From IMG/VR virus record IMGVR_UViG_3300006735_000030, positions 1-64,000 of that record: a stretch of DNA of 64,000 nucleotides; one strand, given 5' to 3'. Position 1 is the stretch's first letter. Every line of letters begins with the position of its first letter. This document shows positions 19,955-48,960 of this stretch, one piece after another. Under the pieces are notes generated by a model. The model did not search any database. It was not told the origin of the DNA and was given only the letters and a program-made list of their open reading frames with translations. Made by a program: the position numbers and the translations under genes. This stretch comes from a virus.

Positions 19955-19955
19955 A

Positions 19956-23265: not shown

Positions 23266-23302
23266 ATTTCTTCGTATTAGTTCTCTTTTTAGGAATTTTG
23301 TT

Positions 23303-23812: not shown

Positions 23813-23813
23813 A

Positions 23814-25151
23814 TTACACCTTTGTTAATTTTGGTAATTTAATATCTAAACCACTTGGTTTTGTATCTTCAACTTTTTTCAATTGTGGTAGTTTTAGATT
23901 TACTTGTTGTGGTTGTTCTTCAAACTTTGGTAAATACTTATCAAGTATTAAACTCAACTCTTTTGTCATGTTTTCTAAACTAAAACTCTTACTATGTAGA
24001 GATTGTTTTTTAGCTCCTATCAAGTATTTAGCATAGTTTTTAAAAATATCCATCATAACTCTACAAGCATTAGGATAGTTTGTAGTAAACCACTGCATTC
24101 CTTCAACAAACATACCTTCTGGAAAACCCGCAGTTGGTACACTACTCATACTACCTGGTAACAATACAGACATATCCTTTTCTAAGAAATCTGTATGACC
24201 ACTCCAATTTGGAGCTATAACTGGTTTTTCACTCAAACTAGCTTCCAACAATGGTCTACCAAATCCTTCACCATGTGTTAATGAAACATGAGCTTTTACT
24301 TTTGGATGATTATATAATTGATTCATCTCATCATCAGTAAAATCACCATGTAGTACATATATGTTTGGTAGTTCACCATATACGGTTTTACGTATATCTC
24401 TAATCTTTGAAAGAATCTCTTCTCTATCAATCACAGAAAATGTAGCTCCACTTGTCTTCATTATAAGACCTGGTGCGTTTTTGACGTTCTTAAATGTTTC
24501 CAAAAACGTTTTAACTAACATACCAGTATCTTTTCTATCTTCACCAATATTACCTTGTAACCAATGACCAGTATACAAGAAGTTAAATTTTTCTGGTATC
24601 TGTTCAAACTCCGAAACAATCTCTGGACTAAACTCATTAGTCTTTTTGTAAATGTTTAAATCGGCTCCTTCAAATAAGACTTCTATTGCTTTTTCCAATC
24701 TCAAGTCTGGTCCTTTTTGACCAGTTTGTTGGTCTACTCTTGAAAATGTAGTATTGATAAAACCTTGTTTAGTAAAGCTTGATGGAACTAATAATAAGTC
24801 CATTCTATTAGCACCTTCTAACCAAGTCTGATGAACTACAGTTGATTCTATACCAGCTGTTATTCCAATGTTATATTTAGCATTAACCATAAATTCATTT
24901 GGTACTACAATATGAAAGTGTATGTCTGGTTGTCTTGGTAACCTTGGTTCTGTCATCAACCTATCAATAATTCTTTTATCTCTTTCGTCATGTTCATCTA
25001 ACGCATTCATTGAACAATTACCCCAACGAACAGACATTATCTTAATGTCAAATTTGTCCATATCAATTAACGAATGAACTATATCTCTACTATGTGAACC
25101 ATAACCACTTCTTGTGGCTACTGGTGCAGTAACTAATACTAATGGTTTCAT
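23814..25151 (-). CDS. Family 4-type (GT-B) glycosyltransferase
   Basis: The 445-residue protein is a group 1 glycosyltransferase: RSGYGSHSRDIVHSL at the acceptor site near residue 13, and the donor-binding GEGFGRPLLEASLSEKPVIAP with the E-x7-E pattern near residue 290. The C-terminal tail carries a repeated short motif, LKLPQLKKV then IKLPKLTKV, which looks like a linear binding motif and not part of the enzyme fold. It should transfer a nucleotide-activated sugar in the cytoplasm. Confidence 0.88.
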   Translation of the reverse strand: MKPLVLVTAPVATRSGYGSHSRDIVHSLIDMDKFDIKIMSVRWGNCSMNALDEHDERDKRIIDRLMTEPRLPRQPDIHFHIVVPNEFMVNAKYNIGITAGIESTVVHQTWLEGANRMDLLLVPSSFTKQGFINTTFSRVDQQTGQKGPDLRLEKAIEVLFEGADLNIYKKTNEFSPEIVSEFEQIPEKFNFLYTGHWLQGNIGEDRKDTGMLVKTFLETFKNVKNAPGLIMKTSGATFSVIDREEILSKIRDIRKTVYGELPNIYVLHGDFTDDEMNQLYNHPKVKAHVSLTHGEGFGRPLLEASLSEKPVIAPNWSGHTDFLEKDMSVLLPGSMSSVPTAGFPEGMFVEGMQWFTTNYPNACRVMMDIFKNYAKYLIGAKKQSLHSKSFSLENMTKELSLILDKYLPKFEEQPQQVNLKLPQLKKVEDTKPSGLDIKLPKLTKV

Positions 25152-25343
25152 TTATCCCCCATATTCCTTTATCATTTCTTCAGCTCTTTCGTATTGTCCA
25201 TCATAACTATTCATATTAAGATACCAACCCTTTTTTCCATTGATACCAACTTTTATATGAGCTACAATTAGTTTAGCTAAATCCTCACTTGGTAAATTTT
25301 TTCTTCGATATTTTTCTATTACATCTTTAATTAATTTTTCCAT
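25152..25343 (-). CDS. Small helical protein, unknown function
   Basis: The 63-residue product is wedged between two family 4 glycosyltransferases, ending directly at the start of one. It is helical (EDLAKLIVAHIKVGINGKKG) and contains a short Tyr- and Asp-rich C terminus. It has an SD before its ATG. No function is recognised. Confidence 0.55.
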   Translation of the reverse strand: MEKLIKDVIEKYRRKNLPSEDLAKLIVAHIKVGINGKKGWYLNMNSYDGQYERAEEMIKEYGG

Positions 25344-25351
25344 GTTAACTC

Positions 25352-26746
25352 CTATGCTTTGTAAACACTAAAACGTTTTCTTGGTTTCCAAGTCTCAAAA
25401 ACTTTATCCATATGTTCAATAAAATTATTACACATTGATTCTCCACTCATCATAGAATCATCACCTATTGCCCATTCATGTCCAACCATACCACATCTTT
25501 TTCTTTCTTCTCTACCAACATCATACCAATCTTTTACTCTATCGGCTACATCATTCCAATCACATCTGTCATCGAAAATATATGGCGTTGGAACTGAACC
25601 CATTAGTGAACGAGTCCTTGGCCATACTGGTTTTACCCAATCTCCATGAGTTAATCTATCATTATTTTCCCATTTCCTATAATCATGAAACGAGTGTACT
25701 TCTGAATAATCTTTGTATGTGACGTAGTTACCATCTAATTTAAATCCACATTGGTCTTGCATTCCACCAGTAACATTTAAAATAACTGGTGTTCCACACA
25801 TAATAGATTCTGCACCAGACAACCCAAAACCCTCATTTGATGAAATCAACAATGTACAATCTGCTATATTATACAGATAGTTTAGAGCTTCATCAGATAA
25901 CTTTTGGTCTGAAAAGGCTACATCTCCATTTGGACATAACTCTTTCACAACATTTGGTAAGTGTGTACCATTGTTATCAATTGGTGTTGTATGCATAATC
26001 AGAAGACATTTGTCAGCTTTTTCTTTTGGTAACATACCACAAAACTTATTGTAAGACAAAATAATATCACCTACCATTTTACGTTTGATATTACGAGCAT
26101 TATAAAATAGAATAAAATCTCTATCTACACCCTTTACTGCATTTTTCTTGAAATCTATATATTTTTCGTCTTGTTTCTGTTCTTTAGTCATTGGAAAAAA
26201 ACTTTTATGATTTATACCATGTGGTATATATGTAGAATCAATATCAGTTCTTGGTTTATGTTGACAAACATTTTGAACAATATTATGAGTTTGTTTTGAA
26301 ATATTCATAATCAAATCACAAGACTCGTAGTAATTTTCATTCCATCTTGGATAAGGTAAGTCATCCCAAATATTATAATAAAATATAGGAATCTCTTGTC
26401 GTATCTCATGTTCCATTTGAAATAACCAAACCCAAAATCGTGGGTCTGTATAAATCATGATAGCGTCTGGTTTTTCTATACTCATTATTTCACGTAACAT
26501 ATCTGGGTTTCCATAACCACTTGTTGGATAAACCTTCAAATAAGGTGTTACTTCAAGTTTTAACTCTTTCTTAACATCGGCCGATAAATCGAATACCTTC
26601 CCTTCGTCTGGGTGTTTTATAGCTCCACCAATCTGAACCCAATCATAATGGTTTAACGTTCCCTTGACAAATTCCCTTGACATTGTACCGACACCAGAAG
26701 ACATACGTAAGTCATCTGACAACAACAATATTTTCTTTTTTGACAT
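25352..26746 (-). CDS. Family 4-type (GT-B) glycosyltransferase
   Basis: The 464-residue protein has MSSGVGTMSREFVKG near residue 15 as the acceptor-side loop and SNEGFGLSGAESIMCGTPVI near residue 300 as the nucleotide-sugar site with E-x7-E spacing. A GT-B enzyme is clear. It is first in the run of glycan genes that reads down to 5.8 kb. SD sequence is present before the start. Confidence 0.88.
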   Translation of the reverse strand: MSKKKILLLSDDLRMSSGVGTMSREFVKGTLNHYDWVQIGGAIKHPDEGKVFDLSADVKKELKLEVTPYLKVYPTSGYGNPDMLREIMSIEKPDAIMIYTDPRFWVWLFQMEHEIRQEIPIFYYNIWDDLPYPRWNENYYESCDLIMNISKQTHNIVQNVCQHKPRTDIDSTYIPHGINHKSFFPMTKEQKQDEKYIDFKKNAVKGVDRDFILFYNARNIKRKMVGDIILSYNKFCGMLPKEKADKCLLIMHTTPIDNNGTHLPNVVKELCPNGDVAFSDQKLSDEALNYLYNIADCTLLISSNEGFGLSGAESIMCGTPVILNVTGGMQDQCGFKLDGNYVTYKDYSEVHSFHDYRKWENNDRLTHGDWVKPVWPRTRSLMGSVPTPYIFDDRCDWNDVADRVKDWYDVGREERKRCGMVGHEWAIGDDSMMSGESMCNNFIEHMDKVFETWKPRKRFSVYKA

Positions 26747-34832: not shown

Positions 34833-35084
34833 TCAATTTATTTTTAATAAATCCTTAAATTTTTTTAATTGTTGTTCATTCAACCAACCATTGAAGTAAT
34901 TACCACTAATATTCATTATTGGATACGTCAATTTATCAGAATTTGTTTTCTTATAGAGTTTTTCCTCTAATTTTTTGTTCTCAAAAACTCTGACTTCCAT
35001 AAAGTTTACACCATTGTTTCTTAACCAAGTTTTAGCTTCTTTACAATATGGACACTTAGGAATTGTGTACAATACTAAAACCAT
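34833..35084 (-). CDS. Glutaredoxin
   Basis: The 83-residue protein has the dithiol active site CPYC at residues 11-14 after VLYTIPK, the cis-Pro LTYPIM near residue 55 and NGWLNEQQL at the glutathione-contact region. Length fits phage glutaredoxins (T4 NrdC class). It should reduce ribonucleotide reductase or other cytoplasmic proteins. It overlaps the DNA polymerase gene by ten bases. Confidence 0.92.
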   Translation of the reverse strand: MVLVLYTIPKCPYCKEAKTWLRNNGVNFMEVRVFENKKLEEKLYKKTNSDKLTYPIMNISGNYFNGWLNEQQLKKFKDLLKIN

Positions 35085-37591
35085 GCGTTTTCATTCTTTA
35101 CTTGTGGTTCACTCCAATCTAATGCACCATAAAACATATTTAGTTTTTTGGTCATAGCTTGTTCATACATCTTATCATAATCAATGTACTCTTTAATAAA
35201 ATCCATTATCTCTTTTGGGTCTTCATATCCCTTATAAGCAACAACGTCTAATTTCAATGGATTATCTTTCAAATACACCCATCTGATTTTAGAGTCGCTA
35301 ACAATTGGTTCATAACTTTTTTTCTTAAAATACTTTAACAAATCATTATAGTATATTGAAGACTTAACATGAACTGGTGTACCAGTCATAATGGCTGTTT
35401 TTGCTCCAACGTTACTGAATCCATCGTCTTTTTTTGGTGTATACTTTTCTATGTTCTTTACACCAACTGGATTTGCTATATCATCTACACTCAATTGTCT
35501 TATCTTAGATTTAAAGTCTAATATTCTTTCATCAACTTTATCCTTTGGAACATAATTCAATATATCATCAAGTACACTCTTTAGTAAATGTTTCATAGCT
35601 GGTGGGAATGTACTTCGAACTGTATCTAAACCTTTTACGTGAACCTTATTTACTTTTACCCCATTGTCATTGATAATTCTCATCCCATATCGTTTCTTAA
35701 CAACGAAGAAACCAGCTCTTGCTATAATCTCTTGTTTAATCTCAAATCTATGTTTAGAAATATTACAAAACTTTTTAGCAAAGTAATCATAAGACTTGTT
35801 CATATAACCTTGAACTTCTGTGGCTATCTCTGAAATCTTTTGTGTTTTCATAACATCAGAAAGTTCTTGATTTGGAAATCTCTTTTCAAGAAGTGGTACT
35901 GCAGAATAAAATACTGAATCGGTATCAATATAAATACAATAGTCTTTGTCATCTTCAAGTTCTTTATTATAAAAGTGATTACCAATCTTCTTTGTAAACT
36001 TAATTAGAGATTGACCAGTCAACGTTGTTGCTTCGGCGTTATCTAAATCATAAAACCTAAATACTGATAGACCTAATACACCATACAATGAATTTAAAAC
36101 AACTTTCTGAATGTATTGTTTCCTATTAAAATATTGATATTTCTCATCATCACCTTCGTCAGCAAACTTTTTAGCTAGTTTTCTAAACTCTACCCTTGTA
36201 TTAAACCATTGTTCCAATAGAGCGGGAATCAAACCTTTTTTATCTGTTTTATAAATTATACCATTGGATGAAATAGAGACTTGATTATCATTAAAATAAG
36301 TTTGTAACTCTTCGTGTGTAACCTTACCTTGTTCCTTACCACCCATTTTTACTGTATAAGTTTTTGGTACTTTTTGAACATACTCTTCTGGATTCCAACC
36401 AACTATTTCACCTATCTTTGTTTCTGGCGATATATTCAATGACATAATAATTGATGGATACATTGAAGTAATATCTAAATCATATATCCATTCGTGTCTA
36501 CCTTTTTGTGGGTCTTGTACATAAGCACCAGAGAACTTGTTCTCTTCAAATAAATCTTTTCTACCATCTTTCTTTTTGTTTGGTGCAACAATACCAAGTT
36601 TCTTTAAGTAAACTAATACGGCTCCTTCAAGATATCTCGAAGACCATTCTACTTCTTCGTATGGTACATGACCAACATGAGCAATACCTCGACACACATC
36701 TATAAAATCTAACTTATCATTTAACATCTTAACAAGTCTAACGTCATGAATGTTATATTCTACGAATTTATTTAAATCATTGTCATACAAATCATTTAGT
36801 GTTCCTTCATACTCAACTTTTTTCTCACCAAGTTCATCTTCTGCTATAGCATCTAATCTGTAAGATGTCTTTTGAGTATATGTAAAATTTTTATATAGTG
36901 ACAAGTAATCTAATTGAGATAGTCCAGCTATTTTATATCTATTTTGGTACTCACTCCAATTAACTCTTCTGATTGGAGAAAGACAATCTGCTATTTCAGA
37001 ACCAAGTACGTTTGTAGCTCTATTGTAAAGATATGGCATATCGAATCTCAAACTATTCCAACCAGTCAATATTGTAGGTCTTAACTGAAGAAATAATGCA
37101 TAAAATCTATTTAATAACTCACCTTCTTCTTGAAAAGCTTCTATCTCAATATCATCTTTAGTTTCAAGAGTTAGTCTGTTATCTGGGTCAAGAACAAGAC
37201 AAAAATATTTGTCCACTCCACTATCGTAATAAGCTATTGAAGTTATTTTGTTTTCTGCTTTTTGAACGTCTGGAAATCCTTGTGTAACCTCAACCTCGAT
37301 ATCAATAATACCAATTCTTATGTCTGAAGATATATCATCTGAATCTGTATACATATCAACAAGTGTTCTTGTCTCTGGATTAACATCAGATTCCCAAAGG
37401 TTTTTAGTCTTCTTATCGAACTTATATACTTTTTTTAGTTTATCTCCATATAGAGATACATAAGTTCCATAATTGTCTTTTACGTAAGCGTATTTTTTAT
37501 ATGGTAGGACGAGATAACCTTTTTCGTCATCCCAAATGTGTATCTTGTTTTTGAAGTTATCATAAAATATATTCTGATACATTAAAACCAA
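35075..37591 (-). CDS. 43: Family B DNA polymerase, gp43-like
   Basis: The 838-residue protein is a replicative family B polymerase. Exonuclease motifs include IGIIDIEVE near residue 92, GWNSLRFDMPYL near 190 and YNIHDVRLVKML near 276. Polymerase motif A is DLDITSMYPSIIM near residue 373, motif B VVLNSLYGVLG near 500 and motif C YIDTDSVFY near 550. Length is close to T4 gp43 (898). It acts with gp45, gp44/62, gp41 and gp32, all encoded in this window. Confidence 0.96.
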   Translation of the reverse strand: MVLMYQNIFYDNFKNKIHIWDDEKGYLVLPYKKYAYVKDNYGTYVSLYGDKLKKVYKFDKKTKNLWESDVNPETRTLVDMYTDSDDISSDIRIGIIDIEVEVTQGFPDVQKAENKITSIAYYDSGVDKYFCLVLDPDNRLTLETKDDIEIEAFQEEGELLNRFYALFLQLRPTILTGWNSLRFDMPYLYNRATNVLGSEIADCLSPIRRVNWSEYQNRYKIAGLSQLDYLSLYKNFTYTQKTSYRLDAIAEDELGEKKVEYEGTLNDLYDNDLNKFVEYNIHDVRLVKMLNDKLDFIDVCRGIAHVGHVPYEEVEWSSRYLEGAVLVYLKKLGIVAPNKKKDGRKDLFEENKFSGAYVQDPQKGRHEWIYDLDITSMYPSIIMSLNISPETKIGEIVGWNPEEYVQKVPKTYTVKMGGKEQGKVTHEELQTYFNDNQVSISSNGIIYKTDKKGLIPALLEQWFNTRVEFRKLAKKFADEGDDEKYQYFNRKQYIQKVVLNSLYGVLGLSVFRFYDLDNAEATTLTGQSLIKFTKKIGNHFYNKELEDDKDYCIYIDTDSVFYSAVPLLEKRFPNQELSDVMKTQKISEIATEVQGYMNKSYDYFAKKFCNISKHRFEIKQEIIARAGFFVVKKRYGMRIINDNGVKVNKVHVKGLDTVRSTFPPAMKHLLKSVLDDILNYVPKDKVDERILDFKSKIRQLSVDDIANPVGVKNIEKYTPKKDDGFSNVGAKTAIMTGTPVHVKSSIYYNDLLKYFKKKSYEPIVSDSKIRWVYLKDNPLKLDVVAYKGYEDPKEIMDFIKEYIDYDKMYEQAMTKKLNMFYGALDWSEPQVKNENAWF

Positions 37592-39033
37592 CTATCATCT
37601 TTATTGATTGTCTTGAACTTTGGGTCTACTTTAGACTCACCAAATGTCAATTCAGAATCATCAACGAGTTTTTGTATCTCATCTCGTTTATCATCTGGAA
37701 CAAATAACTTTGTATACTCATAATTTGGGTCATCTTTTATTCCTTTGGATATACACCAAAGTCTTATCTTCTCCCACGTGTTACTCAAATACAAATTAGG
37801 ATGACTATTGTATAATAAATTTTTCTTGAAACCATTACCTTTTAGAATATGGTATAACCACTCAATTCCAGCACTTGGTGTTTTTACAGTACGTTTCTTT
37901 TTACCATCACAAGCTTCACTCAAATCATTAATTAGATTTTCTTTAAATCTTTCATCGTGTGGTGGTAAATCCCATTGGAAATCTTTTGGTGTATTATCTA
38001 ACAACTCAAGAAAAGACTTTTTATCTGTAAAATATAATGGATAATCTTTACCTAAAACGTGTTCTTGTGTAGGATGTTTGAATGTTAAACTTGGTCTATT
38101 AGCTTTTATAGCATCTTGTACTGATAAATTCCAAGTCATATAATCGTTCACTATACAAATACTAGCATAACAATTATCTATCAAGTATCTATATTGACCA
38201 CCACTTGGTAAGTTTTGAACTTTCATCCAATCTGGTGCAGGTTTACCAGCTTTTGGTTTTTTAGCATCATCATCGGTAATCCAAACTAACCACTCATCTC
38301 TATCAAGGTCTTTCGTCCACTCTATAAGTTTTTTTATACCAGTAGATTGATTCCATCTGTGATTGAATACCAATATTTTTTTGTCTGGTAATGGAAATGG
38401 TTCTGGGTCAGGTAAGTCACCAACACCAAGTGGAAAGTAATTAATTTTTTCTTTCATGACGTTGTCATCAACACCTTGTGCTGTATGTGGCATCTTATCC
38501 CAATTGGATTTCATATAGTCCAAACTAACTGGACAATGAAAATAAGATTTTGTAGATAAATCAATAGCTTCTAATTGTCTGAAGAAACCAACTGGATAAC
38601 CACCAGTAGGTCTACTCTTTTCACAATCAACCCAATGGAAAAAATTGTAACTATCTACAGTCATTCCATACCTATCGGTCAGGATTGCGTTGTAAACATT
38701 GTACAATAATTCTGGTTGGTGATTAAAGATAAAGTCAACATCAAGTCTTTGAAAGTCAACTTTTTTCAATAGAGCTTTACTATCGAAGAAACCACGATTA
38801 AATAATACACTACCAGCATATGGAAACTTTATCATTGTGACATTATCTCCAAGATGTGGGATTGTATTGTTTGGTGGAACTAAAACATAATGATGACACA
38901 TAGGTAACCACTTTATAGTTTTAACCATTACTTTATAATTGGAATCTGCTTGATGCATAAATTTGGTTGAACGCCATCTTACAGGTGACATAACGTGTAA
39001 GACTCTTCTACCATATAACTTGTGATTTATCAT
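37582..39033 (-). CDS. Glycosyltransferase-like protein, paralog B
   Basis: The 483-residue protein is the paralog of the 28954-30351 product. Matching blocks include VLHVMSPVRWRSTKF, HHYVLVPPNNT, NHQPELLYNVYN, NFFHWVDCEKSR, ILVFNHRWNQSTGIKKLI and DYMTWNLSVQDAIKANRP. It may have a GT-B fold. The two copies bracket the ClpP-clamp-polymerase region, 28.9-39.0 kb. It overlaps the DNA polymerase start by ten bases and follows a candidate promoter. Confidence 0.6.
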   Translation of the reverse strand: MINHKLYGRRVLHVMSPVRWRSTKFMHQADSNYKVMVKTIKWLPMCHHYVLVPPNNTIPHLGDNVTMIKFPYAGSVLFNRGFFDSKALLKKVDFQRLDVDFIFNHQPELLYNVYNAILTDRYGMTVDSYNFFHWVDCEKSRPTGGYPVGFFRQLEAIDLSTKSYFHCPVSLDYMKSNWDKMPHTAQGVDDNVMKEKINYFPLGVGDLPDPEPFPLPDKKILVFNHRWNQSTGIKKLIEWTKDLDRDEWLVWITDDDAKKPKAGKPAPDWMKVQNLPSGGQYRYLIDNCYASICIVNDYMTWNLSVQDAIKANRPSLTFKHPTQEHVLGKDYPLYFTDKKSFLELLDNTPKDFQWDLPPHDERFKENLINDLSEACDGKKKRTVKTPSAGIEWLYHILKGNGFKKNLLYNSHPNLYLSNTWEKIRLWCISKGIKDDPNYEYTKLFVPDDKRDEIQKLVDDSELTFGESKVDPKFKTINKDDSWF

Positions 39034-39136: not shown

Positions 39137-41893
39137 TTAGAAATTAACAGTAAGTCCTAAATTAAAACTTCTTGGTGTTCCAAGAAATACTTCAGCGTTA
39201 TGAGCTAAGTGCATCTTATCACCATACCCATTGTACTTACTATTGTCAACGGCATCTTGAACATAAACATCGTCAAGTGCGTTAAATAAATGACCATGTA
39301 AAGTCATATCAAGTCCTGCCATTTTAGGTAACCTATAAGCTACGTGTATGTCCATCTTACCATAAGACGGGGTTTTCCATACTTGTGCTCTGTCAGCATC
39401 ACCTTCAACTTCACGACTATCTGGACTCCAATCAGAATAATGATTGTCGTACCATCTATATAGACCTTGGACACTCAATCCTTCAATTGGTTTGATTGTT
39501 AAACCACCAACATAAGATGTCTGTGGCATATCACCAACTTTTAGATTGTTTAAAGCGTATTCATACTCAGTAGATGTTTGTCCAATGATTTGATTATCAT
39601 CATTGTATTCCATCTCTGTGTAGTCACCTTTAGCATCTCCATCAAAATACCAATCTCCAATACTAACGGCAACATCCAAGTCAACCATTTCATGTAGAGC
39701 GACTTTAGACTCAATCTCGAAACCACTATGACTTTGGTTTACACCAGTCAAATAAATGATGTCTGTGTCACCTGAGTCACCTTGACCAGTCGTAACTGAC
39801 TTTGTAAGGTTTCTGTCTTTCCATTGAGTGTTATAGTAACTACCTTTGATAGCAACTTTGTCACTTCTATATTCTCCACCAACTTCTGTAGATATGAATT
39901 TCTCATTGTCTGGGTTTGTGGATACATTCCCATCATAATCAATTACATTATCTAAGATTGGTGGTTTCTGTACGTAACCAGCATTAGCAAATGCAGATAA
40001 TCTGTCATCAAGATTATATCTAGCTCCACCCTTTGCTTGAAAGGTTGTGATAGCAGGAGCTTCAACAAAATTATCAATCTTGTTTCCATCCTCATCTACA
40101 TTAAGAGCGAAATGGTCTTCGTAAGTATATCCAATTGTAGATATACCACCCATACCATATAGATTTATCTTTTCAGTATCATATTTACCTTGTAGAAAAG
40201 CTCCTAACCAATTTACAGTAGTTTCGTTATGATACGCAATAATATCACCTAAACGAACAACTTTACCATCGGCCATATTGTCATCAGCGTAGTCTACATA
40301 GTAGTCTCCACCAAGTAAATCACGAACTTCTCTAGCGTGTTCTATACCAGCAGTTCTCCAATCAATACCAACTTGAACTTCAAGTTCATCTGAAACATCA
40401 TAGTTCAATTTAGAAATTAAACCATAAGTATCTTGTCTATTGATTGAGTTTCTAAGGATACCTGTGGAACGATTTTCAACATCAGAGAACGCAGAATCTA
40501 CATTAGCAGAGTTCTGAGCTATCTCAGCATTCCAATCCCAAGTCCAAGGTGAACTTGCATACCAAGGGTTTCCTTCTATCGCGGGTGTCCTACTTACGCT
40601 ACCATAAGTACCAGTTCCTCCACCAGAACCACCACTCCAATATAGTACTGAACTTAACCTCATGTCTTCATTGATATCATAAAAATGATTCAAGTTAACA
40701 AGTGGTTTATGAAAGAAGTTTTCTCTTTCATTTAGGAAGTTAGAACTATACCTATCGGTTGTACGAGCTCCGTACATATACCAATATTGTTGACCTTTAT
40801 AATCTGGGTCAATTGGTGCAACGTTTTGGTTAAGGAATCTACCAGCCTCGTGTTCGAACTTTTCTCCTTCAACATAAGCAGAATCGTTGTATCCATCAAT
40901 ACTACCTGCTAACTCTTGTGAATAAGTTGCGATATTCTGTTTATATAGATTCTGACCATGACGCTGTGGAGCACCAACAGCATACAACTCAAGTCTATGG
41001 TCATCGTTCATCTGATAACTTGTTCCAAGATAGTAAGCCCAAGCGTCTGTCCATGTTCCATCTATAAAACCATCACCAGTTTTACGAACAATCGTTCCAC
41101 TTATTGCTAACTTATCATTTAACATAAGTCCTGAGTTATAATTCAAAGTAGATTTAAGGAATCCACCTTCACCTACTTCTTGTTTTACTTTACCACCCTT
41201 CTCGTGTTGAGCTGGGTCGGTAATTATGTTCATAGTTCCACCAATAGATGGTGTAGCTAGATTAACAGCTGAAAGACCTCTTTGCATCTGAATTGAGGTT
41301 GTAGCATCACCTACTCCATCCCAATTAGACCAATAGACCCATCCGTTCTCCATATCATTTTGGGGAACACCATTTATCATCACGGCCACGTTTCTTTGGT
41401 TAAATCCACGAACATTGATACGAGCATCACCCGCACCACCACCTTGACCAGTCGCATATACACTTGGTGTAGTATTAAGAATCATTGGAATATCTTGTGA
41501 ACCAAGACGTAATTCCATTTCTTCTTTATCTACAGTAGTGTAAGCAACAGGTGTCGTTTCATCAGCTCTTGAAGCAAGAACCTCAAGTGCTGACATTGCA
41601 ACGACATCAGTTTCTAAAGTGAAACTAACACTCGCTACAATATCCCCAACACTAACAGATTTAGTCTGGGTTATGTAACCAATGTAAGAAGCTGTCACAT
41701 CAAAAGTACCAGTGCCAGTCTCAATAGTAAATTTACCTTCACTATCCGAGACCCCGCCTAAGTCTGTACCTTCAATAGTAACATTAGCTCCTACAAGTGG
41801 TTTATCGCCTTTACCAACGAATCCTGTAACGACTTGTCCGAAAACAAATCCGCTCATCATCACCAGTAAAGACATGAGATTACGATAATTCAT
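39137..41893 (-). CDS. TonB-dependent outer-membrane receptor with CarboxypepD_reg-like domain
   Basis: The 918-residue protein has a signal peptide (MNYRNLMSLLVMMSGFVFGQ) and a carboxypeptidase-regulatory-like beta-sandwich at residues 21-100 (GDKPLVGANVTIEGTDLGG). A plug domain at about 110-230 follows (RINVRGFNQRNVAVMINGVPQ, LATPSIGGTMNIIT). A 22-strand-type barrel follows, ending in the outer-membrane terminal Phe (FNLGLTVNF). Such receptors import siderophores, vitamin B12 or glycans using TonB energy. The frame is intact. Phage genes of the same strand lie on both sides, so it is cargo carried by the phage. The ligand is unknown. Confidence 0.93.
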   Translation of the reverse strand: MNYRNLMSLLVMMSGFVFGQVVTGFVGKGDKPLVGANVTIEGTDLGGVSDSEGKFTIETGTGTFDVTASYIGYITQTKSVSVGDIVASVSFTLETDVVAMSALEVLASRADETTPVAYTTVDKEEMELRLGSQDIPMILNTTPSVYATGQGGGAGDARINVRGFNQRNVAVMINGVPQNDMENGWVYWSNWDGVGDATTSIQMQRGLSAVNLATPSIGGTMNIITDPAQHEKGGKVKQEVGEGGFLKSTLNYNSGLMLNDKLAISGTIVRKTGDGFIDGTWTDAWAYYLGTSYQMNDDHRLELYAVGAPQRHGQNLYKQNIATYSQELAGSIDGYNDSAYVEGEKFEHEAGRFLNQNVAPIDPDYKGQQYWYMYGARTTDRYSSNFLNERENFFHKPLVNLNHFYDINEDMRLSSVLYWSGGSGGGTGTYGSVSRTPAIEGNPWYASSPWTWDWNAEIAQNSANVDSAFSDVENRSTGILRNSINRQDTYGLISKLNYDVSDELEVQVGIDWRTAGIEHAREVRDLLGGDYYVDYADDNMADGKVVRLGDIIAYHNETTVNWLGAFLQGKYDTEKINLYGMGGISTIGYTYEDHFALNVDEDGNKIDNFVEAPAITTFQAKGGARYNLDDRLSAFANAGYVQKPPILDNVIDYDGNVSTNPDNEKFISTEVGGEYRSDKVAIKGSYYNTQWKDRNLTKSVTTGQGDSGDTDIIYLTGVNQSHSGFEIESKVALHEMVDLDVAVSIGDWYFDGDAKGDYTEMEYNDDNQIIGQTSTEYEYALNNLKVGDMPQTSYVGGLTIKPIEGLSVQGLYRWYDNHYSDWSPDSREVEGDADRAQVWKTPSYGKMDIHVAYRLPKMAGLDMTLHGHLFNALDDVYVQDAVDNSKYNGYGDKMHLAHNAEVFLGTPRSFNLGLTVNF

Positions 41894-41925
41894 AATCTTT
41901 CTCCTTGCTTATTATTCATATGAAT

Positions 41926-41959
41926 GACGCATTTTTCTACAGGTGCGTCGTCTGCCTGT
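41926..41959 (-). promoter_or_regulatory. 5' leader of the receptor gene with two exclusive hairpins
   Basis: GACGCA (41926-41931) can pair with TGCGTC (41944-41949), and ACAGG (41939-41943) can pair with CCTGT (41955-41959). The two stems share bases and cannot form together. A perfect 12-base palindrome ATTCATATGAAT at 41915-41926 and an SD AAGGAG follow toward the receptor start. The layout suggests a translational or attenuation switch for the receptor. No known riboswitch class is recognised. Confidence 0.4.
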
Positions 41960-41982
41960 CCGCTTTTTTTGTATGTGAAGTC

Positions 41983-43989
41983 TTAATTAGCATAGTCTTG
42001 GTCGTCATTATCACCAGTCATGGGTACTACTTCACAAACGTCATTGTTACAAAATTTATCTACATCAGCTTCTTCGTGTTTGATTGTACCAAAAGAAAGT
42101 TTACCAAGTTTCTTAACTTGTTTATTGTATTCTTTTTCATCAATAGACTCATACGGCATTTGTGGATATGCTCCGTAATCATGTCTTGGAAGAAGTGAGA
42201 TTCCCTTTAAATGATACTGATAATAATTTAAGACTTGTGGTATAACCGAACCCTCTGTTTCTGGGTCGAATGTTACTGTACAACTAACTTGATTGTCTGC
42301 CCAATGTCTTTGAAGAAAAGCGGCTAAACTGAATTGTTCCCAAATCGAAAGTTCAGCCGCTGTCCTAATCCCCTCACCGACATCTACAGGTACTTCAACA
42401 ACCATTGTTGTATCTTCAGAACCAAATGCAGGTTCTACTTTGTATTTTGCTTTTTTCAATGGTTCTAACAATTCTGAATGTTTTGAAACACGTATTCTCC
42501 TAATGTAAAAACGACTCTCAGGGTAATGTAATCCTGGAGTCGCTCCCGCTAATAGTGAAACTGTACCTGATGGCTTTACTGATGTAGTTTTTACACTACG
42601 TGGTACTGCCATCCAATCTGAATATTGTTTATCCCAAGTCTGAATAACATCATATCCACCATTCAACCAATTCTTTAGTTCGTCTAATCCACGATTTGTA
42701 ATAAATTGTGCGACACCACTAACACTACAACCAATTCTTCTGTTTCTTAACATTACACGATTTGTATCAGACCAATGAGTTTTACCAAGTGTTACAGTTT
42801 TCGCATAAAGATAAGCATATTTTAATGTTCTAGCATAATCTTCAAACGAATCGTGATTATTTGGAAATGTTTCTACTAAACAACATAACTCGTATGATTC
42901 CAATGATTGTTCCAAACAAGGATTACCACCCATTACTCTGTGGTCTTTGTTGTCTCCACCATTTTTCATACGAGAGTATTTTCTCATATTGTCTAACCAA
43001 GCTAAACCTGGTTCACCATTGTCTACAATTCTTTTTGATACTTCAGTATAATCCATACCCAATTCTGCAAATATACTATTATTGGATGTCCAACCATATT
43101 GGTCTCTATGTGGATTTACTTTATAATTTTTTAAATCTAAATATTCTTCATCATGTGGGTCTCCAAATACAATCTCAGCAGTTCTTCTTACATTACCAGC
43201 AACAACACACTTACCAATCAAATTCATTATGTCTACGATTGTAGTGATTGTGATTGGTTCTCCACTATTTTTATCAAGAACTTTTCTAATTGCTTCGTGT
43301 ACTTCTTGTAATGGTTCATGTCCACTCGATACACCACCAAAACCCGCTATAGGAGCTCCCGCAGGTCTTATCTTTGTGTAATCAAACTCCATTGGTGCTT
43401 GTCCATGAAAGTAACTTTCTAATAGTAGTCTTAAAGATTCTACCCAACCTTCACGAGTATCTGGTATTTCATATACTTGTTCGTCTCTATCTTTTTGAAC
43501 ACCTTTAACTACTATCTCTCCAGCACCTTTGGTATCGAATCCTACACCAACACCTAACATACTTGCATCCATAAGGAAACAGAAAGGTTTAGCATAGTCT
43601 TCTTTTAGTGTTTTCGTAGATACGAAAGCACAATTGTTTAGGGCGGCATATAATCCCTTTTTTTCTGTGATAGCTGTTCCCATAGCCCACAGTCCGCGAC
43701 CAGGGGGCAAGAATTTCATATTGAAAATTCGCTCATACATATCTTGAGCTGACTTTTGTGCTTGCCACGGATTCCACCCTAATTGATGTGAGTCTATCCA
43801 ATTCATTTGCATTGAATAAGTTCCCTCTACGACTCGTTGTACAGTTTCCCACCATCTTTCGTTTTTACCATCTTCTTTAATTCTTGAATAGGTTCTCATA
43901 TAAACTAATTCACCTAATCCATTAAAACCAAAAGGAGCTTTCTTCCTTTTATACTTACTTATAAAATTTTCTGATAACTTAAAATTCAT
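41983..43989 (-). CDS. nrdJ: Adenosylcobalamin-dependent ribonucleotide reductase (class II, RTPR type)
   Basis: The 668-residue protein matches monomeric class II ribonucleoside-triphosphate reductase. FLPPGRGLWAMGT near residue 93, NNCAFVST near 118, and GGNPCLEQSLESYELCCLVET near 355 with the active-site Cys-x-Glu are typical. SVKPSGTVSLLAGATPGLHYPES lies near residue 478. The C terminus (CNNDVCEVVPMT) supplies a Cys pair likely used for re-reduction by thioredoxin. It makes dNTPs from rNTPs and needs vitamin B12 from the host. It is shorter than the L. leichmannii enzyme (739). Confidence 0.92.
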   Translation of the reverse strand: MNFKLSENFISKYKRKKAPFGFNGLGELVYMRTYSRIKEDGKNERWWETVQRVVEGTYSMQMNWIDSHQLGWNPWQAQKSAQDMYERIFNMKFLPPGRGLWAMGTAITEKKGLYAALNNCAFVSTKTLKEDYAKPFCFLMDASMLGVGVGFDTKGAGEIVVKGVQKDRDEQVYEIPDTREGWVESLRLLLESYFHGQAPMEFDYTKIRPAGAPIAGFGGVSSGHEPLQEVHEAIRKVLDKNSGEPITITTIVDIMNLIGKCVVAGNVRRTAEIVFGDPHDEEYLDLKNYKVNPHRDQYGWTSNNSIFAELGMDYTEVSKRIVDNGEPGLAWLDNMRKYSRMKNGGDNKDHRVMGGNPCLEQSLESYELCCLVETFPNNHDSFEDYARTLKYAYLYAKTVTLGKTHWSDTNRVMLRNRRIGCSVSGVAQFITNRGLDELKNWLNGGYDVIQTWDKQYSDWMAVPRSVKTTSVKPSGTVSLLAGATPGLHYPESRFYIRRIRVSKHSELLEPLKKAKYKVEPAFGSEDTTMVVEVPVDVGEGIRTAAELSIWEQFSLAAFLQRHWADNQVSCTVTFDPETEGSVIPQVLNYYQYHLKGISLLPRHDYGAYPQMPYESIDEKEYNKQVKKLGKLSFGTIKHEEADVDKFCNNDVCEVVPMTGDNDDQDYAN

Positions 43990-44014: not shown

Positions 44015-44044
44015 TGTATACTGATTCCATATATAATTATTCAA
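44015..44044 (-). promoter_or_regulatory. Possible sigma70-like promoter before nrdJ
   Basis: On the minus strand TTGAAT (44039-44044) is followed by 18 bases and TATACA (44015-44020). The -10 equals that of the structured RNA promoter. It lies in the 47-base gap between gp41 and nrdJ. Confidence 0.4.
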
Positions 44045-45413
44045 ACCCTTCCATTTTGCCATCATCAGTTTTAAAATCGTCATATTTATTTTTGGCTAAT
44101 TTTCTCAAATACTCATCTGAACTATCCATCTTCTTCTGTTGTGATTTACCACCAACAGAATTTGATTCGTGAATCTCTATCTTACCAATATTAGTATTCA
44201 TCATCATTGGATATGTCATACCATCAACTCCAAATCTATTCTTGATAACGTGACAACGAGCAGTATTAGATATTTTATCTTCTACCTTACGACTTATTGA
44301 CATTACAAAATCAGATGTCATAACCTTAGAATAATCTTCAGATACTTTTGTAGCATCAATTACTTCCTCTTCAAGAGCACTTCTATTAGCTTGTGAAGCT
44401 GTCCATACGGGAATTTCAAACTCACCCGCTAACTCTCTAAGTCTTTCGTAATTATCTCCAATAGAATGTCTCTTTTCTCTGAATGTACCAAGTGGTTTTA
44501 CAATATCAGCATAATCACATACAACTAAATCTGGTTTTATACCTTGAATTAGTAATTGTTGTAAATGTGAATTTAACGTCTGAACTGTAGCCGAACGAGT
44601 AGGATAATATTTTATGTATAAATCACCTTTAAGTGTGTCTATCTTCTTCTGTACGTCATCTTTATAAAACTTGATATTACCAGTAGTCACTCCACTAAAC
44701 ACTGTATCGTATCTCAATCCAACATATGTCTGATTTAATTCTAAACTATAATGAACTACAGTTTTACCTCTAGCCATAGCATTAGCTCCAATAACTTGTA
44801 ACATCCAAGTCTTACCAATACCAGCTGGTGCAACTATAACACCAAGTTCACCTGCACCAAGACCACCATCCATAACTTCGTCTATTATATCCCAACCAGT
44901 AGGTGTGGTATTTCTAACCGACTCTGTTAATCTTTCTTCTAAACTTGTTACGTACTCGTGACCCAAATCTCGTTCAGTACCAACCGACATAGACTTATCT
45001 ATAAGTGCTTTTATACCATCGTAATCTTGATTTTCTAATAGATTAACTGATTCTAATATTGCACCTTTTAAAACTTGATTTTTACAAAAATCTAAACACT
45101 TCTCTTTTACAAAATCTAAATCAGAAGACTCGATATGTTTCCAACACTCTCTTAAAGCATCTACTACAGCAACTTGTAATGTATCCGATTCTATGTCATT
45201 GATTTTTATTTTTAAAACATCAAGTGTTGGTACATCTTTATGTTTCATAAAGTAATCAACTATCTCATCAGCTAACCAAGCATTAGAATCAGAATCAAAT
45301 ATATCACCATTCAATATATCCGAAGATGTTTGTAAAAACTTAACATCAGATAATAGAGATGATAAAACTTTTACTTGAAATGGTGTACCATATATTGATA
45401 ACTTATCGCTCAT
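44037..45413 (-). CDS. 41: Replicative DNA helicase, gp41-like (DnaB family)
   Basis: The 458-residue protein is a RecA-fold replicative helicase. The N-terminal 180 residues are a helical domain; the motor has Walker A APAGIGKTW at residues 195-203, Walker B LVVCDYADIVKP near 300 and WTASQANRSALEEEVI near 345. Gp41 unwinds DNA ahead of gp43 and binds primase. It overlaps the nuclease gene by 11 bases. Confidence 0.92.
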   Translation of the reverse strand: MSDKLSIYGTPFQVKVLSSLLSDVKFLQTSSDILNGDIFDSDSNAWLADEIVDYFMKHKDVPTLDVLKIKINDIESDTLQVAVVDALRECWKHIESSDLDFVKEKCLDFCKNQVLKGAILESVNLLENQDYDGIKALIDKSMSVGTERDLGHEYVTSLEERLTESVRNTTPTGWDIIDEVMDGGLGAGELGVIVAPAGIGKTWMLQVIGANAMARGKTVVHYSLELNQTYVGLRYDTVFSGVTTGNIKFYKDDVQKKIDTLKGDLYIKYYPTRSATVQTLNSHLQQLLIQGIKPDLVVCDYADIVKPLGTFREKRHSIGDNYERLRELAGEFEIPVWTASQANRSALEEEVIDATKVSEDYSKVMTSDFVMSISRKVEDKISNTARCHVIKNRFGVDGMTYPMMMNTNIGKIEIHESNSVGGKSQQKKMDSSDEYLRKLAKNKYDDFKTDDGKMEGFE

Positions 45414-46464
45414 TACTTATCCCCGCATATTTGTTTAGAGTAGAGAATGTAGTCAATAACCAACTATCAACATTTGGTAATGATTGAAATAATTTGTCTC
45501 GTAAAAACATTTTTGTAAATTCAAACTTAGTTAATTGTTGAATTGGTTCATCAACAATGTCTTTTATTTTTAATTTAGCGTTACCACTAATATTAACATC
45601 ATTTAATTGCATTAAATCGTTGTTTAATTGTAATTGTTTTTGATTGTCTTCTGTCAACATAGACTTGACATTTTTTGTAACTTCATTGTCTTCAATGTAT
45701 TTTAAAACTTCTTCTATACTAACTATCTGCTCATTTTGTAAAAGAGGTAAGCATTTTTGAATTGTTTTTAGTGCAACTCCTTTGATACCTGGAATATTAT
45801 CTGATTTGTCACCATCAATTATTTTATACATCAAAAAGTTATGAGATGGTATACCAAACTCTTCTTGAACTTCATCTGGTGTATATTTCTTTTTCTTGGT
45901 TGGGCTCCAAACAGAGATTCTATTATCTACCAACTGAAGAAAATCTTTATCGGTAGACATTATTGTTATTTTAGAATCTGTTAAGATTTGTTTGGAGATG
46001 TAACCAATAGCATCATCAGCTTCCATGTGGTTAGCAGATATAATAGTTAGAGGAAGTAATTGTAAATACTCCACCAACCGACTCATCTGAAACAACATAG
46101 ATTGGTGTTCATCTTCTGGTGTATTCCAATCATAAGCTCTATTCAAACGTATTTTTGTTCTACGTTTAGCTTTATAGTTTGGAAATATTTTACGACGGCG
46201 GTCAGAGCCTCCTTCTCCATCAAATACTATGATACACCTTGTTGGATTGTGCATCTTAATAGCGTAACCAACTGATTTTAAGAAACCAATTATTCCACCA
46301 ACGTGAGCACCATCATCATTGGTAATTGGTACAACGCTGAAAACTCTTATGAAAGTATTCAGGCCATCTATAATCAATACTTTATCGTTTGGATTATTAT
46401 GCTCAACTTGACCGCCGTCTTTCTTGATTTGTTCTAATATAGAAAGGTATTTTTCATTACTCAC
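45403..46464 (-). CDS. 5'-3' exonuclease / RNase H, T4 Rnh-like
   Basis: The 353-residue protein belongs to the FEN/PIN nuclease group. VLIIDGLNTFIRVF holds the first catalytic Asp near residue 33, FDGEGGSDRRRKIFPNYKAKR follows near 105, MEADDAIGYIS near 165 and STDKDFLQLVDN near 185. A helix-hairpin-helix DGDKSDNIPGIKGVALKTI lies near residue 230. T4 RNase H removes RNA primers from Okazaki fragments. It lies between gp41 and UvsX and overlaps both. Confidence 0.9.
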   Translation of the reverse strand: MSNEKYLSILEQIKKDGGQVEHNNPNDKVLIIDGLNTFIRVFSVVPITNDDGAHVGGIIGFLKSVGYAIKMHNPTRCIIVFDGEGGSDRRRKIFPNYKAKRRTKIRLNRAYDWNTPEDEHQSMLFQMSRLVEYLQLLPLTIISANHMEADDAIGYISKQILTDSKITIMSTDKDFLQLVDNRISVWSPTKKKKYTPDEVQEEFGIPSHNFLMYKIIDGDKSDNIPGIKGVALKTIQKCLPLLQNEQIVSIEEVLKYIEDNEVTKNVKSMLTEDNQKQLQLNNDLMQLNDVNISGNAKLKIKDIVDEPIQQLTKFEFTKMFLRDKLFQSLPNVDSWLLTTFSTLNKYAGISNER

Positions 46465-47578
46465 TAATCACCTCATCTGTCATTTCTACATCATCAATAC
46501 CTAAATCATCTTTTGTGTACTTTAATATAACCTTGTCACAAATCAAGTTATAACAATAGTCTCGTAGTTCTTTATCTTCTAACATACTTGACCAATCTTT
46601 AGATTGAAACTTCTTCTCATCTGTAACTTCACCAGTTTCCATATCAATAATTGGAAGTGTGTACCAAGCTCCTGCAACTTTTACAATTTTATGTTCTTTC
46701 ATTATGGTCAACCAACTACCATCATCATCAATACCACTTTCAAAATAAAGTGGAAACTCACAATGTCGTAGTGGTGGCCCTAATCTGTTCTTAACAACTT
46801 GAGCTTGTATATTCATTCCAATCGTATTCTTTTTAGTGTCTTTTATTTGACCTTTATTCTTCAATCGAATACGAGTAGAAGCATGAAATGGTAACGCTTT
46901 TCCACCACTTGTTGTCCAAGGGTCTCCAAACATTACACCCAATTTTTGTCTTAACTGATTAGTGAACACAAGAGCAACCTTACGTCTTCCAATCATTTGT
47001 GTAATCTTTCTCATCGCTTTTGAGATGATAATTGCTTTACTGGTAGCCCATCCATCTTTTTCGAAGTCAGCTTCCATCTCTACTTTGGTAGAAGCACCAG
47101 CTAAACTATCAACTAAAATAGTAACTAATCTTGTGTTATCTTCTTCTCTAACCTTAGTAACTATCTTTTCTATAGCTTCAAATATTTCTTCTACAGTTTC
47201 TAAGTGGACATATAACATATTGTCTATATCAACACCGATAACCTCAAGAAATTCTCTACTAACTGCAGTTTCAGTATCTATATAGACGGCTACACCACCC
47301 TTCTTTTGTGTGGAAGCTAATAAATGAGCTCCAACCAAGGATTTACCACTTGATTCAAGACCATTTATTTCTGTAATTCTACCAACGGCAATTCCACCAT
47401 CTGGTCTATTTGATATAGCCAAATCCAACATGGAACTACCAGTGGATATAAAATCCGTAATATCTGTTGGTGTGTCATCAGTACCATCAAGAAAATATGC
47501 GACTTTGGGATAATCTTTTTTAAATTGTTTATTTAGACTTGTGGATAAAACCGAAGCCAATTCGTCTCTTGCAGACAT
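46457..47578 (-). CDS. uvsX: UvsX recombinase (RecA family)
   Basis: The 373-residue protein has Walker A GLESSGKS at residues 73-80, VAVYIDTETAVS, the Walker B strand TILVDSLAGAS near residue 150 and the L2-region VFTNQLRQKLGVMFGDPWTTSGGKALPF. It forms filaments on ssDNA and drives recombination-dependent replication with gp32. Length is near T4 UvsX (391). It follows an attenuator-like hairpin after gp32. Confidence 0.94.
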   Translation of the reverse strand: MSARDELASVLSTSLNKQFKKDYPKVAYFLDGTDDTPTDITDFISTGSSMLDLAISNRPDGGIAVGRITEINGLESSGKSLVGAHLLASTQKKGGVAVYIDTETAVSREFLEVIGVDIDNMLYVHLETVEEIFEAIEKIVTKVREEDNTRLVTILVDSLAGASTKVEMEADFEKDGWATSKAIIISKAMRKITQMIGRRKVALVFTNQLRQKLGVMFGDPWTTSGGKALPFHASTRIRLKNKGQIKDTKKNTIGMNIQAQVVKNRLGPPLRHCEFPLYFESGIDDDGSWLTIMKEHKIVKVAGAWYTLPIIDMETGEVTDEKKFQSKDWSSMLEDKELRDYCYNLICDKVILKYTKDDLGIDDVEMTDEVISE

Positions 47579-47591
47579 ATAATTCTCCTAT

Positions 47592-47665
47592 GAAAAAAAG
47601 TGGGTGGTTCCAGAAAGCGGAGTGTTCCTCTATCTTAACAGTGGCTCTTAACCTTAGCCACCCAC
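47592..47665 (-). terminator. Attenuator-type hairpin between gp32 and uvsX
   Basis: GTGGGTGG (47600-47607) pairs with CCACCCAC (47658-47665) to close a large hairpin followed on the minus strand by seven U residues. Inside, GTGGCT (47641-47646) pairs with AGCCAC (47656-47661), and this shares bases with the outer stem, so the two folds compete. The arrangement fits a regulated terminator controlling the step from gp32 to uvsX. Confidence 0.65.
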
Positions 47666-47678
47666 AATGTTATCTTAT

Positions 47679-48443
47679 TTACCGATTAAATAACTCGTCA
47701 AATGCAGATGAAGCATCATCAACAGTAGTAGTTTCTTTCAGAGTCTTTTTAGTCTCTGTAGTTTCTACTGTTTCTTCTTCTCCACCTTCTTTGTTTTCTG
47801 GGTTTAACCACTCATTAAGAACGTTAGTAAGTTCATCATAACCAAGTTCGTTATAAACTTCGTTAAGATTAACTTGGTTCTCCAAGCTGTTTTCCATCAA
47901 TTTAGAATCCTCTGATATAGGTGTTTGATTTGGTTTAACACGAATACCAGTGGTAGGAAATGATTTACCAGTTTCTTCTGCGGTCTTAAACTCTACAACA
48001 ACATCACGACCATTGGTTGCATCTGAAATGTCACCATAGTCTGGGTCAGCGATTATAGATAGAAGTTCTTGGTATACAGTTTTACCAAAACCCCAAAATT
48101 TAATACCATCGTTCTCGGCTCCACGAACTAATACGGGTGCAAAAGTTCTCATCTTAGCTTCCAACTTTTTACCAAGTCTCCAATCGTCACGATTACCACT
48201 TGATTTCAATTTGTCGGCAAACTCTTCGATAGGGTCTGGTCTTCCAAAAGAAATTGGTGATAAGTAAGTACGTCCACCTAAGTCATAATGAAAATACAAC
48301 TCAATAAAGGGTGTAGATTTATTATACTTGAATGGTACTATTCTTACGATTTGTTTTCCTGGTGATGGTTTCCAAAGATTATTGGAACGTTGATTAGTAG
48401 TTTGTAACTGGTCTAAACGTTTACGTATTGCATCAATATCCAT
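47679..48443 (-). CDS. 32: Single-stranded DNA-binding protein, gp32-like
   Basis: The 254-residue protein starts with a short helix and NQRSNNLWKPSPGKQIVRIVP, has the OB-fold blocks YFHYDLGGRTYLSPISFGRPDPI, FAPVLVRG and IKFWGFGKTVYQELLSIIADPDYGDI, and ends in an acidic tail (GGEEETVETTETKK then DDASSAFDELF). This is T4 gp32: basic N terminus for cooperativity, DNA core, acidic tail for protein contacts. The Cys zinc site of T4 is not present. The tail resembles that of other marine T4-like gp32. Confidence 0.9.
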   Translation of the reverse strand: MDIDAIRKRLDQLQTTNQRSNNLWKPSPGKQIVRIVPFKYNKSTPFIELYFHYDLGGRTYLSPISFGRPDPIEEFADKLKSSGNRDDWRLGKKLEAKMRTFAPVLVRGAENDGIKFWGFGKTVYQELLSIIADPDYGDISDATNGRDVVVEFKTAEETGKSFPTTGIRVKPNQTPISEDSKLMENSLENQVNLNEVYNELGYDELTNVLNEWLNPENKEGGEEETVETTETKKTLKETTTVDDASSAFDELFNR

Positions 48444-48625: not shown

Positions 48626-48771
48626 AAAATTTGAAAATTTGGGGATGTGAGATTAACGATTACTCACAACTTTCAGCTTAGATTTTTTTTACCTTGTACC
48701 TAACACTCATCAGTTACGATGATTCTTCTCAAAGTGGTTAACTTCATTGAAGTGAGTACAACCTCTGTGTT

Positions 48772-48807
48772 ATTACCTTATCTCTCTAAGATTAGATTAT
48801 TCGGTCA
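48772..48807 (-). repeat. Two-box module, copy B
   Basis: The module is ATTACCTTAT (48772-48781), a 14-base variable hairpin-prone spacer, and ATTATTCGGTCA (48796-48807) on the plus strand. Both boxes are identical to those of copy A at 48961-49000. It lies inside the candidate RNA. Confidence 0.6.
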
Positions 48808-48960
48808 TGAAGTTGGATTTCAGTTTTACCCTTACCAACAACAAGGTCAAAGAATCGTGTTCTTTATTTATTCTGAAAGTACATTCCGAGTCATATGTCT
48901 ATGAATCACTTACAACCCACAATATCTAGCAGGTGGATAGTCACCACAACTTCTCGGTAG

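Follow-up and report, generated by a model that had tools for sequence, protein, structure and literature searches.

Why a phage should carry a complete TonB-dependent outer-membrane receptor (TBDT) is the question raised by a locus in the window, as we call the whole 64,000-nucleotide stretch of viral DNA that was analysed (Table 1). The earlier note had described a complete receptor with a regulatory-like domain, a plug and a terminal Phe, placed on the phage strand between the gp43 side and nrdJ of a T4-like phage, and this description was borne out in both its parts. The receptor frame contains the two Pfam domains, and its AlphaFold2 model (pLDDT 82, pTM 0.78) shows a plug and a barrel of 22 strands, as counted from DSSP, with Phe918 as the last residue; no Pfam barrel family matched the protein. 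The N-terminus, read from sequence alone, is hydrophobic and signal-peptide-like. A NGVPQNDMENGWVYWSNWDG motif in the plug is nearly invariant across FCB phyla, and residues 103-111 (LEVLASRAD), a TonB-box-like region, were invariant in 16 of the 16 phage copies compared. Identifiable replication genes surround the receptor: gp43, gp41, UvsX, gp32 and gp44-type genes lie in one block on the same strand, as in a T4-like phage, among them a T4 gp32-type SSB and a clamp loader. The gap between nrdJ, which lies upstream, and the receptor is 89 bp. Elsewhere, the window carries ThyX, a manA RNA motif and a set of surface-glycan type genes comprising GtrB-like and other glycosyltransferases, a GDP-mannose-dehydratase-like protein, a DegT aminotransferase, a hexapeptide transferase and a sulfotransferase.

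Table 1 Features of the receptor locus and of related contigs; positions refer to the window unless a contig is named
Feature	Position	Strand	Basis or remark
Surface-glycan type genes	5801-7899, 10448-14911, 18464-26746	-	
gp43 DNA polymerase	35075..37591	-	Pfam/PHROG; downstream of receptor
483-aa ORF between receptor and gp43	37582..39033	-	no Pfam/PHROG match at E 1e-3
Terminator-like G6/C6 hairpin after receptor stop codon	39105..39123	-	in most relatives
TBDT ORF, P0001	39137..41893	-	918 aa, ATG start
Predicted transmembrane beta-barrel, residues 233-917	39143..41197	-	AlphaFold2 model
Plug domain PF07715, residues 112-220	41234..41560	-	Pfam E 1.6e-13, 51.6 bits vs cut-off 23.9
CarboxypepD_reg_2 domain, residues 28-102	41588..41812	-	Pfam PF13715 (CarbopepD_reg_2), E 9e-14, above gathering score
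AGGAG ribosome-binding site	41901..41905	-	read from sequence
Phage-specific H-type pseudoknot in receptor leader, 44 nt	41920..41963	-	covariation; model R1, 67.4 bits
Pseudoknot P1	41955-41959 with 41939-41943	-	ACAGG/CCUGU
Pseudoknot P2	41944-41949 with 41926-41931	-	GACGCA/UGCGUC
Pseudoknot A-rich loop	41932-41938	-	
nrdJ, adenosylcobalamin-dependent ribonucleoside-triphosphate reductase (RTPR type)	41983..43989	-	PHROG 367 E 1e-138; TIGR02505 366 bits, over cut-off
gp41 helicase, 5'-3' exonuclease, UvsX and gp32 genes	44037..48443	-	upstream of nrdJ; core block for comparisons
manA RNA motif RF01745, upstream of gp32	48642-48840	-	73 bits, E 2e-16; also in L003 and L010
ThyX (flavin-dependent thymidylate synthase)	58616-59314	-	
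Receptor on Marinimicrobia contig L082	L082 986-3736		74% identical to phage L223
Lipobox-like protein, directly 3' of receptor	L013 10789-11292; L015 10657-11157; L004 10807-11307		
Glutamine synthetase adjoining receptor or nrdJ	L009 7337-8314; L015 6561-7547; L024 7061-8056; L189, after nrdJ		Pfam Gln-synt_C/N in L009; N-terminus likeness in L015, L024 and L189
tRNA genes in place of post-receptor hairpin	L069 10734-10883		two Rfam tRNA hits

The top Foldseek matches of the receptor model were TBDTs. BtuB headed the structural match list with siderophore receptors nearly level, and BtuB, Fiu, FhuA and PqqU fitted the model about equally in structural alignment, so the ligand is not discriminated by the fold. 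A prediction of ligand type, BtuB-like or glycan-type, had been proposed earlier, and it came out on neither side: to this even fit of the fold is added that P0001 was matched neither by the NCBIfam TonB-B12/BtuB model (TIGR01779) nor, at 1e-3, by the SusC/RagA model (TIGR04056). No SusD partner was found among the phage neighbour genes searched.

The adjacent class II reductase had suggested that the receptor might import vitamin B12 for this enzyme. The constant linkage of receptor and nrdJ agrees with such a role, as does the first rank of BtuB, close as it is to a tie with the siderophore receptors, but the host genomes argue otherwise. One cobalamin riboswitch was present in 15 of the 18 host genomes carrying a receptor orthologue, and where the gene behind it was read, this encodes a different, BtuB-like receptor. 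Among ten genes lying behind this riboswitch, Pfam recognised a plug domain in seven, a CarboxypepD domain only in one and nothing in two. Seven riboswitch-linked receptors, read full length, form one family of 664-705 aa, which is related to P0001 marginally and in the N-terminus only. Mutual identity among the riboswitch-linked BtuB-like Marinimicrobia receptors (L305-L319) is 24-45%, and three of the riboswitch-linked receptors matched TIGR01779, the model that P0001 does not match, at E ~1e-24, below the curated cut-off. The window, four phage loci and 20 host receptor loci yielded no cobalamin riboswitch. The host genomes also have B12-dependent NrdJ_Z reductases (the type of all three host reductases tested), indicating that host B12 uptake already exists. 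We consider B12 import for the reductase very improbable; the B12 link drawn in the earlier note did not hold up, and no finding specifically favours iron supply, which had been raised beside it.

A 158-protein tree places the phage receptors inside receptors of Marinimicrobia (Fidelibacterota), in agreement with the expectation of a host-like nearest relative from FCB bacteria or Marinimicrobia. A full-length orthologue was present in 18 of 18 Marinimicrobia genomes at 53-67% identity, with two in one genome, and the other receptors of these genomes reached at most 38% identity in weak, N-terminal matches. The orthologue is a conserved, usually single-copy receptor of Marinimicrobia, and the assignment of this phylum as host rests on the receptor gene. 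A strict single origin of the phage copies was rejected (AU test, p = 0.0007, the group tested having been defined with the first tree in view): in a second tree, the short Marinimicrobia contig L082, which also carries a second receptor copy in tandem, nests among the phage receptors. Its placement possibly reflects back-transfer or a second acquisition or donor. Phage NrdJ had no match among the 18 host genomes, and the nrdJ-receptor pair was therefore not taken as one host operon. The phage receptor is of cellular origin and stably resident in phage genomes.

With the receptor protein as query, IMG/VR viral contigs yielded 323 stretches coding for relatives; for the top 80, best-segment identity is 74% or higher along almost the entire matched length. 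Both junctions of the receptor recur on dozens of independent IMG/VR contigs, which rules out a chimeric assembly; neither this artefact nor a lack of viral relatives, the two findings named at the outset as damaging to the original reading, was encountered. The claim that complete phage-encoded receptors are rare stands for reference phages, where 22 of 50,697 records matched and only two matches were full length (unannotated gut contigs, ~30% identical), and fails for the present lineage with its many relatives. BFVD contained one full-length viral TBDT-type match. The receptor is widespread within one group of marine T4-like phages. In these phages nrdJ precedes the receptor in 72 of 75 loci with room upstream, the exceptions being two loci with just 156-217 bp upstream and one in which the receptor frame runs into nrdJ. 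The receptor in turn is carried by 64 of the 74 phage loci in which a close nrdJ is followed by sufficient sequence. Of the ten loci scored as lacking it, two can be read otherwise: the frame of L181 is truncated or disturbed, and L189 has another gene followed by the contig end. In four loci (L164, L165, L166 and L169) the leader and the 5' end of the gene, from the start codon through the codons for MKNRNLISLAV, are still present, and in L214 the 3' end is, with the codons for GLSVNF, the stop and the hairpin; these two deletion scars indicate that absence is due to loss and that the receptor is ancestral. The loss in the four loci is recent, since their gp43 is 94% identical to that of the window. 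The 483-aa frame between receptor and gp43 is kept at 89% identity in receptor-less relatives.

Distances among 44 phages, dereplicated to 35 for Mantel tests, were compared between genes. Those of gp43, gp41, UvsX and the exonuclease mutually agree (r 0.82-0.95 in the 44 phages) and those of the receptor disagree with them. Among the 35 phages, Mantel r was 0.07 (p = 0.20) between receptor and gp43 and 0.06 between receptor and gp41, compared to 0.80 between gp43 and gp41; between receptor and nrdJ it was 0.29 (p = 0.02). This decoupling from the core genes indicates that phages have exchanged the receptor while its genomic position stayed fixed. Within the receptor gene, agreement between segments drops with distance, which fits recombination inside the gene. 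The dN/dS ratio is 0.09-0.16, an approximate value as dS is near 1, and the receptor is under strong purifying selection in phages. Conservation between phage and host copies is 89% in the plug and 68% in the linker with the TonB-box-like region. When strand identity is matched, phages resemble one another more closely in the extracellular loops than hosts do (0.74 and 0.63, respectively, where strands are 70-75% identical, with loop limits taken from the model). A passenger gene without present function might be deleted in some relatives, as the receptor is, but would hardly show dN/dS of about 0.1, conservation over its full length, presence at most nrdJ loci and a covarying leader structure; purifying selection at this divergence refutes the idea, to which we give next to no credence.

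Covariation in the aligned sequences supports folding of the receptor leader into an H-type pseudoknot. The 44-nt element occurs in 81 of 81 distinct phage leaders, with its 3' end 24-39 nt ahead of the start codon, and in the same leaders the GGAG end lies 6-9 nt 5' of the ATG. In the alignment, which comprised 46 distinct sequences, pairing holds in 98.6% of cells and 6 of 11 pairs have changed on both sides; these sequences were partly picked by pattern, with some bases fixed, and invariant positions were therefore excluded as evidence. None of 500 shuffles paired as highly, a result inflated by sequence kinship, and the counts of changes on both sides are robust, as is the control in which sliding of the pairing partner abolished the signal. 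When viral contigs were scanned with a looser pattern, 80 hits resulted, of which 76 lie upstream of the receptor, one at a contig end before a receptor-like start and three at contig edges. Rfam offered no fitting match even at E 10. The pattern had one poor, three-mismatch hit in 18 host genomes, equal to the level of the reversed-pattern control, and a model search of 199 genomes, run with strict filters and without a positive control in genomes, found nothing. We infer a regulatory role for the pseudoknot. At the other end of the gene, the terminator-like hairpin is followed in many relatives by a TTGAC...TATA-like promoter ahead of the next unit, as judged by eye, which suggests that a single transcript probably closes with nrdJ and the receptor; a scan for the T4-type late promoter motif was uninformative. 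In L069 and in L072-L074, tRNA genes replace the usual hairpin.

Neighbour genes were clustered around bacterial copies of the receptor at 74 testable loci. The family leading by a wide margin, found at 16 of the 74, is a secreted protein of ~400 aa encoded on the same strand, mostly 70-160 bp downstream, at loci from six or more groups at phylum level (Bacteroidota, Ignavibacteriota, Balneolota, Calditrichota, Chlorobiota and KSB1). This protein belongs to the type I phosphodiesterases/nucleotide pyrophosphatases (NPP; PF01663, E 1e-90 to 1e-97), with ENPP5, ENPP1, snake-venom phosphodiesterase, ENPP4 and a Xanthomonas NPP as its best PDB matches. These genomes have one strong NPP each, and in nine of nine non-Marinimicrobia genomes examined an NPP is present at the receptor locus. 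Seven of eight Marinimicrobia genomes have an NPP, which lies away from the receptor and in two cases adjoins an apparent sodium-solute symporter (by eye). In two Marinimicrobia contigs, L083 and L125, a deoxynucleoside kinase (dNK) lies directly downstream of the receptor.

The pairing of bacterial copies with NPP, and of the two Marinimicrobia copies with dNK, points to a substrate that is likely of nucleotide or nucleoside type. The explanation we favour, with a confidence somewhat short of even, is that the receptor is a host-derived transporter for nucleotide-type compounds which would be made together with the dNTP genes of the phage. Its phage neighbours agree with this, namely nrdJ and, in some relatives, dUTPase, ThyA, a YfbR-type nucleotidase and an AAA/P-loop kinase at the receptor/nrdJ site, and the low dN/dS, conserved plug and TonB-box-like region and conserved loops suggest that function is kept. 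Against it, the Marinimicrobia NPP is not at the receptor, dNK adjacency is rare, the linkage to nrdJ may have been inherited as gene order, the ligand cannot be read from the fold, and the surface-glycan genes of the phage would suit a role in surface remodelling. Some enzymes of the NPP family cleave lipid or choline phosphodiesters, so the NPP product need not be a nucleotide. The same host-derived transporter might instead import another nutrient, such as an iron chelate, a glycan or another cofactor, as would suit the TBDT fold, the conserved plug and structural matches that include iron, PQQ and cobalamin transporters. We judge this rather unlikely, as the NPP pairing indicates phosphodiesters, iron- or glycan-specific genes are absent among the bacterial neighbour families examined, and the phage protein has no SusC/RagA model match.

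Another possible role is superinfection exclusion or replacement of the receptor, in which the phage-encoded protein would displace or mask the host copy and so block adsorption of rivals. TBDTs are classic phage receptors (PDB entries show T5 pb5 with FhuA and the exclusion lipoprotein Llp with FhuA), the gene is swapped independently of core genes, and the window has GtrB-like glycosyltransferase, GDP-mannose-dehydratase-like and other surface-glycan genes. In some relatives a small lipoprotein gene directly follows the receptor. This alternative too seems rather unlikely to us: a mere mask without energised transport would not need the conserved plug and TonB-box-like region, the extracellular loops, rather than being diversified, vary less among phages than among hosts, and the NPP and dNK neighbours of the bacterial family favour uptake. 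The protein encoded after the receptor has 166-167 aa and a lipobox-like N-terminus and was seen in ~9 relatives; it had no Pfam match and was not found in 15 host genomes.

Under the nucleotide transporter reading, a T4-like marine phage lineage, having taken up a conserved Marinimicrobia-type TBDT and retained it behind nrdJ under strong purifying selection, would probably make the receptor with its replication and dNTP genes from an mRNA whose leader is predicted to fold into the phage-specific, possibly regulatory pseudoknot. Host Sec and BAM would probably deliver the protein to the host outer membrane, where host TonB would drive import of the substrate of the host family, most likely a nucleotide- or nucleoside-type compound, judging from the bacterial neighbourhood. 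The imported compound may then feed phage DNA synthesis and phosphorus demand during shutdown of host uptake genes. A more far-reaching proposal, which we hold as doubtful, is that a widespread lineage of lytic marine phages reprograms nutrient entry at the outer membrane of the host, an RNA-switch-controlled copy of the conserved host receptor scavenging extracellular nucleotides for phage DNA and the gene being exchanged independently of core genomes. A conserved, host-derived outer-membrane transporter of this kind, common among marine T4-like phages, would mean that infection can alter which compounds a cell imports from seawater.

Host-derived auxiliary metabolic genes such as psbA and pstS lie near replication genes under purifying selection in lytic phages. 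Phage auxiliary genes mostly serve intracellular metabolism, whereas the gene described here encodes an outer-membrane transporter of host derivation with its own phage-specific RNA leader. The Lc porin of lambdoid phage PA-2 and the T5 lipoprotein Llp are phage products that affect receptor availability at the host outer membrane, both without the TonB-dependent transport expected of a TBDT. The direct homologue is the unnamed core TBDT family of Marinimicrobia and other FCB bacteria with the NGVPQNDMENGWVYWSNWDG motif, which is alike over its full length and in its domains; the bacterial genes differ in having no pseudoknot and, in other phyla, in standing beside NPP, whereas the phage genes stand beside nrdJ. 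For this widespread family the neighbourhood offers a guess at the substrate. E. coli BtuB and the Marinimicrobia BtuB-like receptors share the plug-barrel fold, the latter being set apart by their length, riboswitch linkage and TIGR01779 match. The leader resembles other H-type pseudoknot leaders, those of the preQ1-I and SAM-II riboswitches and the T4 gene 32 operator, in its interleaved stems, A-rich third loop and position 5' of the start codon, and differs from them in its unrelated sequence and in having no fitting Rfam match; it would be a new structured RNA.

Among complete marine phage-borne TBDTs, the putative TonB-dependent receptor SusC of the marine megaphage Mar_Mega_1, for which carbohydrate uptake was suggested (PMC9723777), is comparable to the present receptor, which belongs to another family, adjoins nrdJ in T4-like phage genomes, is preceded by an RNA leader and has many relatives. 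The BFVD entry A0A8D9FQQ5 ('TonB-dependent receptor SusC', uncultured marine phage), with 12% identity to our receptor in structural alignment, may be related to the Mar_Mega_1 protein. The open-access literature searched contained nothing on the receptor family, the leader RNA or the NPP pairing, and on phage TBDTs, exclusion or TBDTs with NPP nothing closer than the Mar_Mega_1 SusC.

Glutamine synthetase and peroxiredoxin (AhpC/TSA) genes also occur at the phage receptor site, and the receptor/nrdJ site appears to be a hot spot for genes of host origin. In L237, a tRNA gene follows nrdJ, seemingly in the receptor's place as judged by eye.
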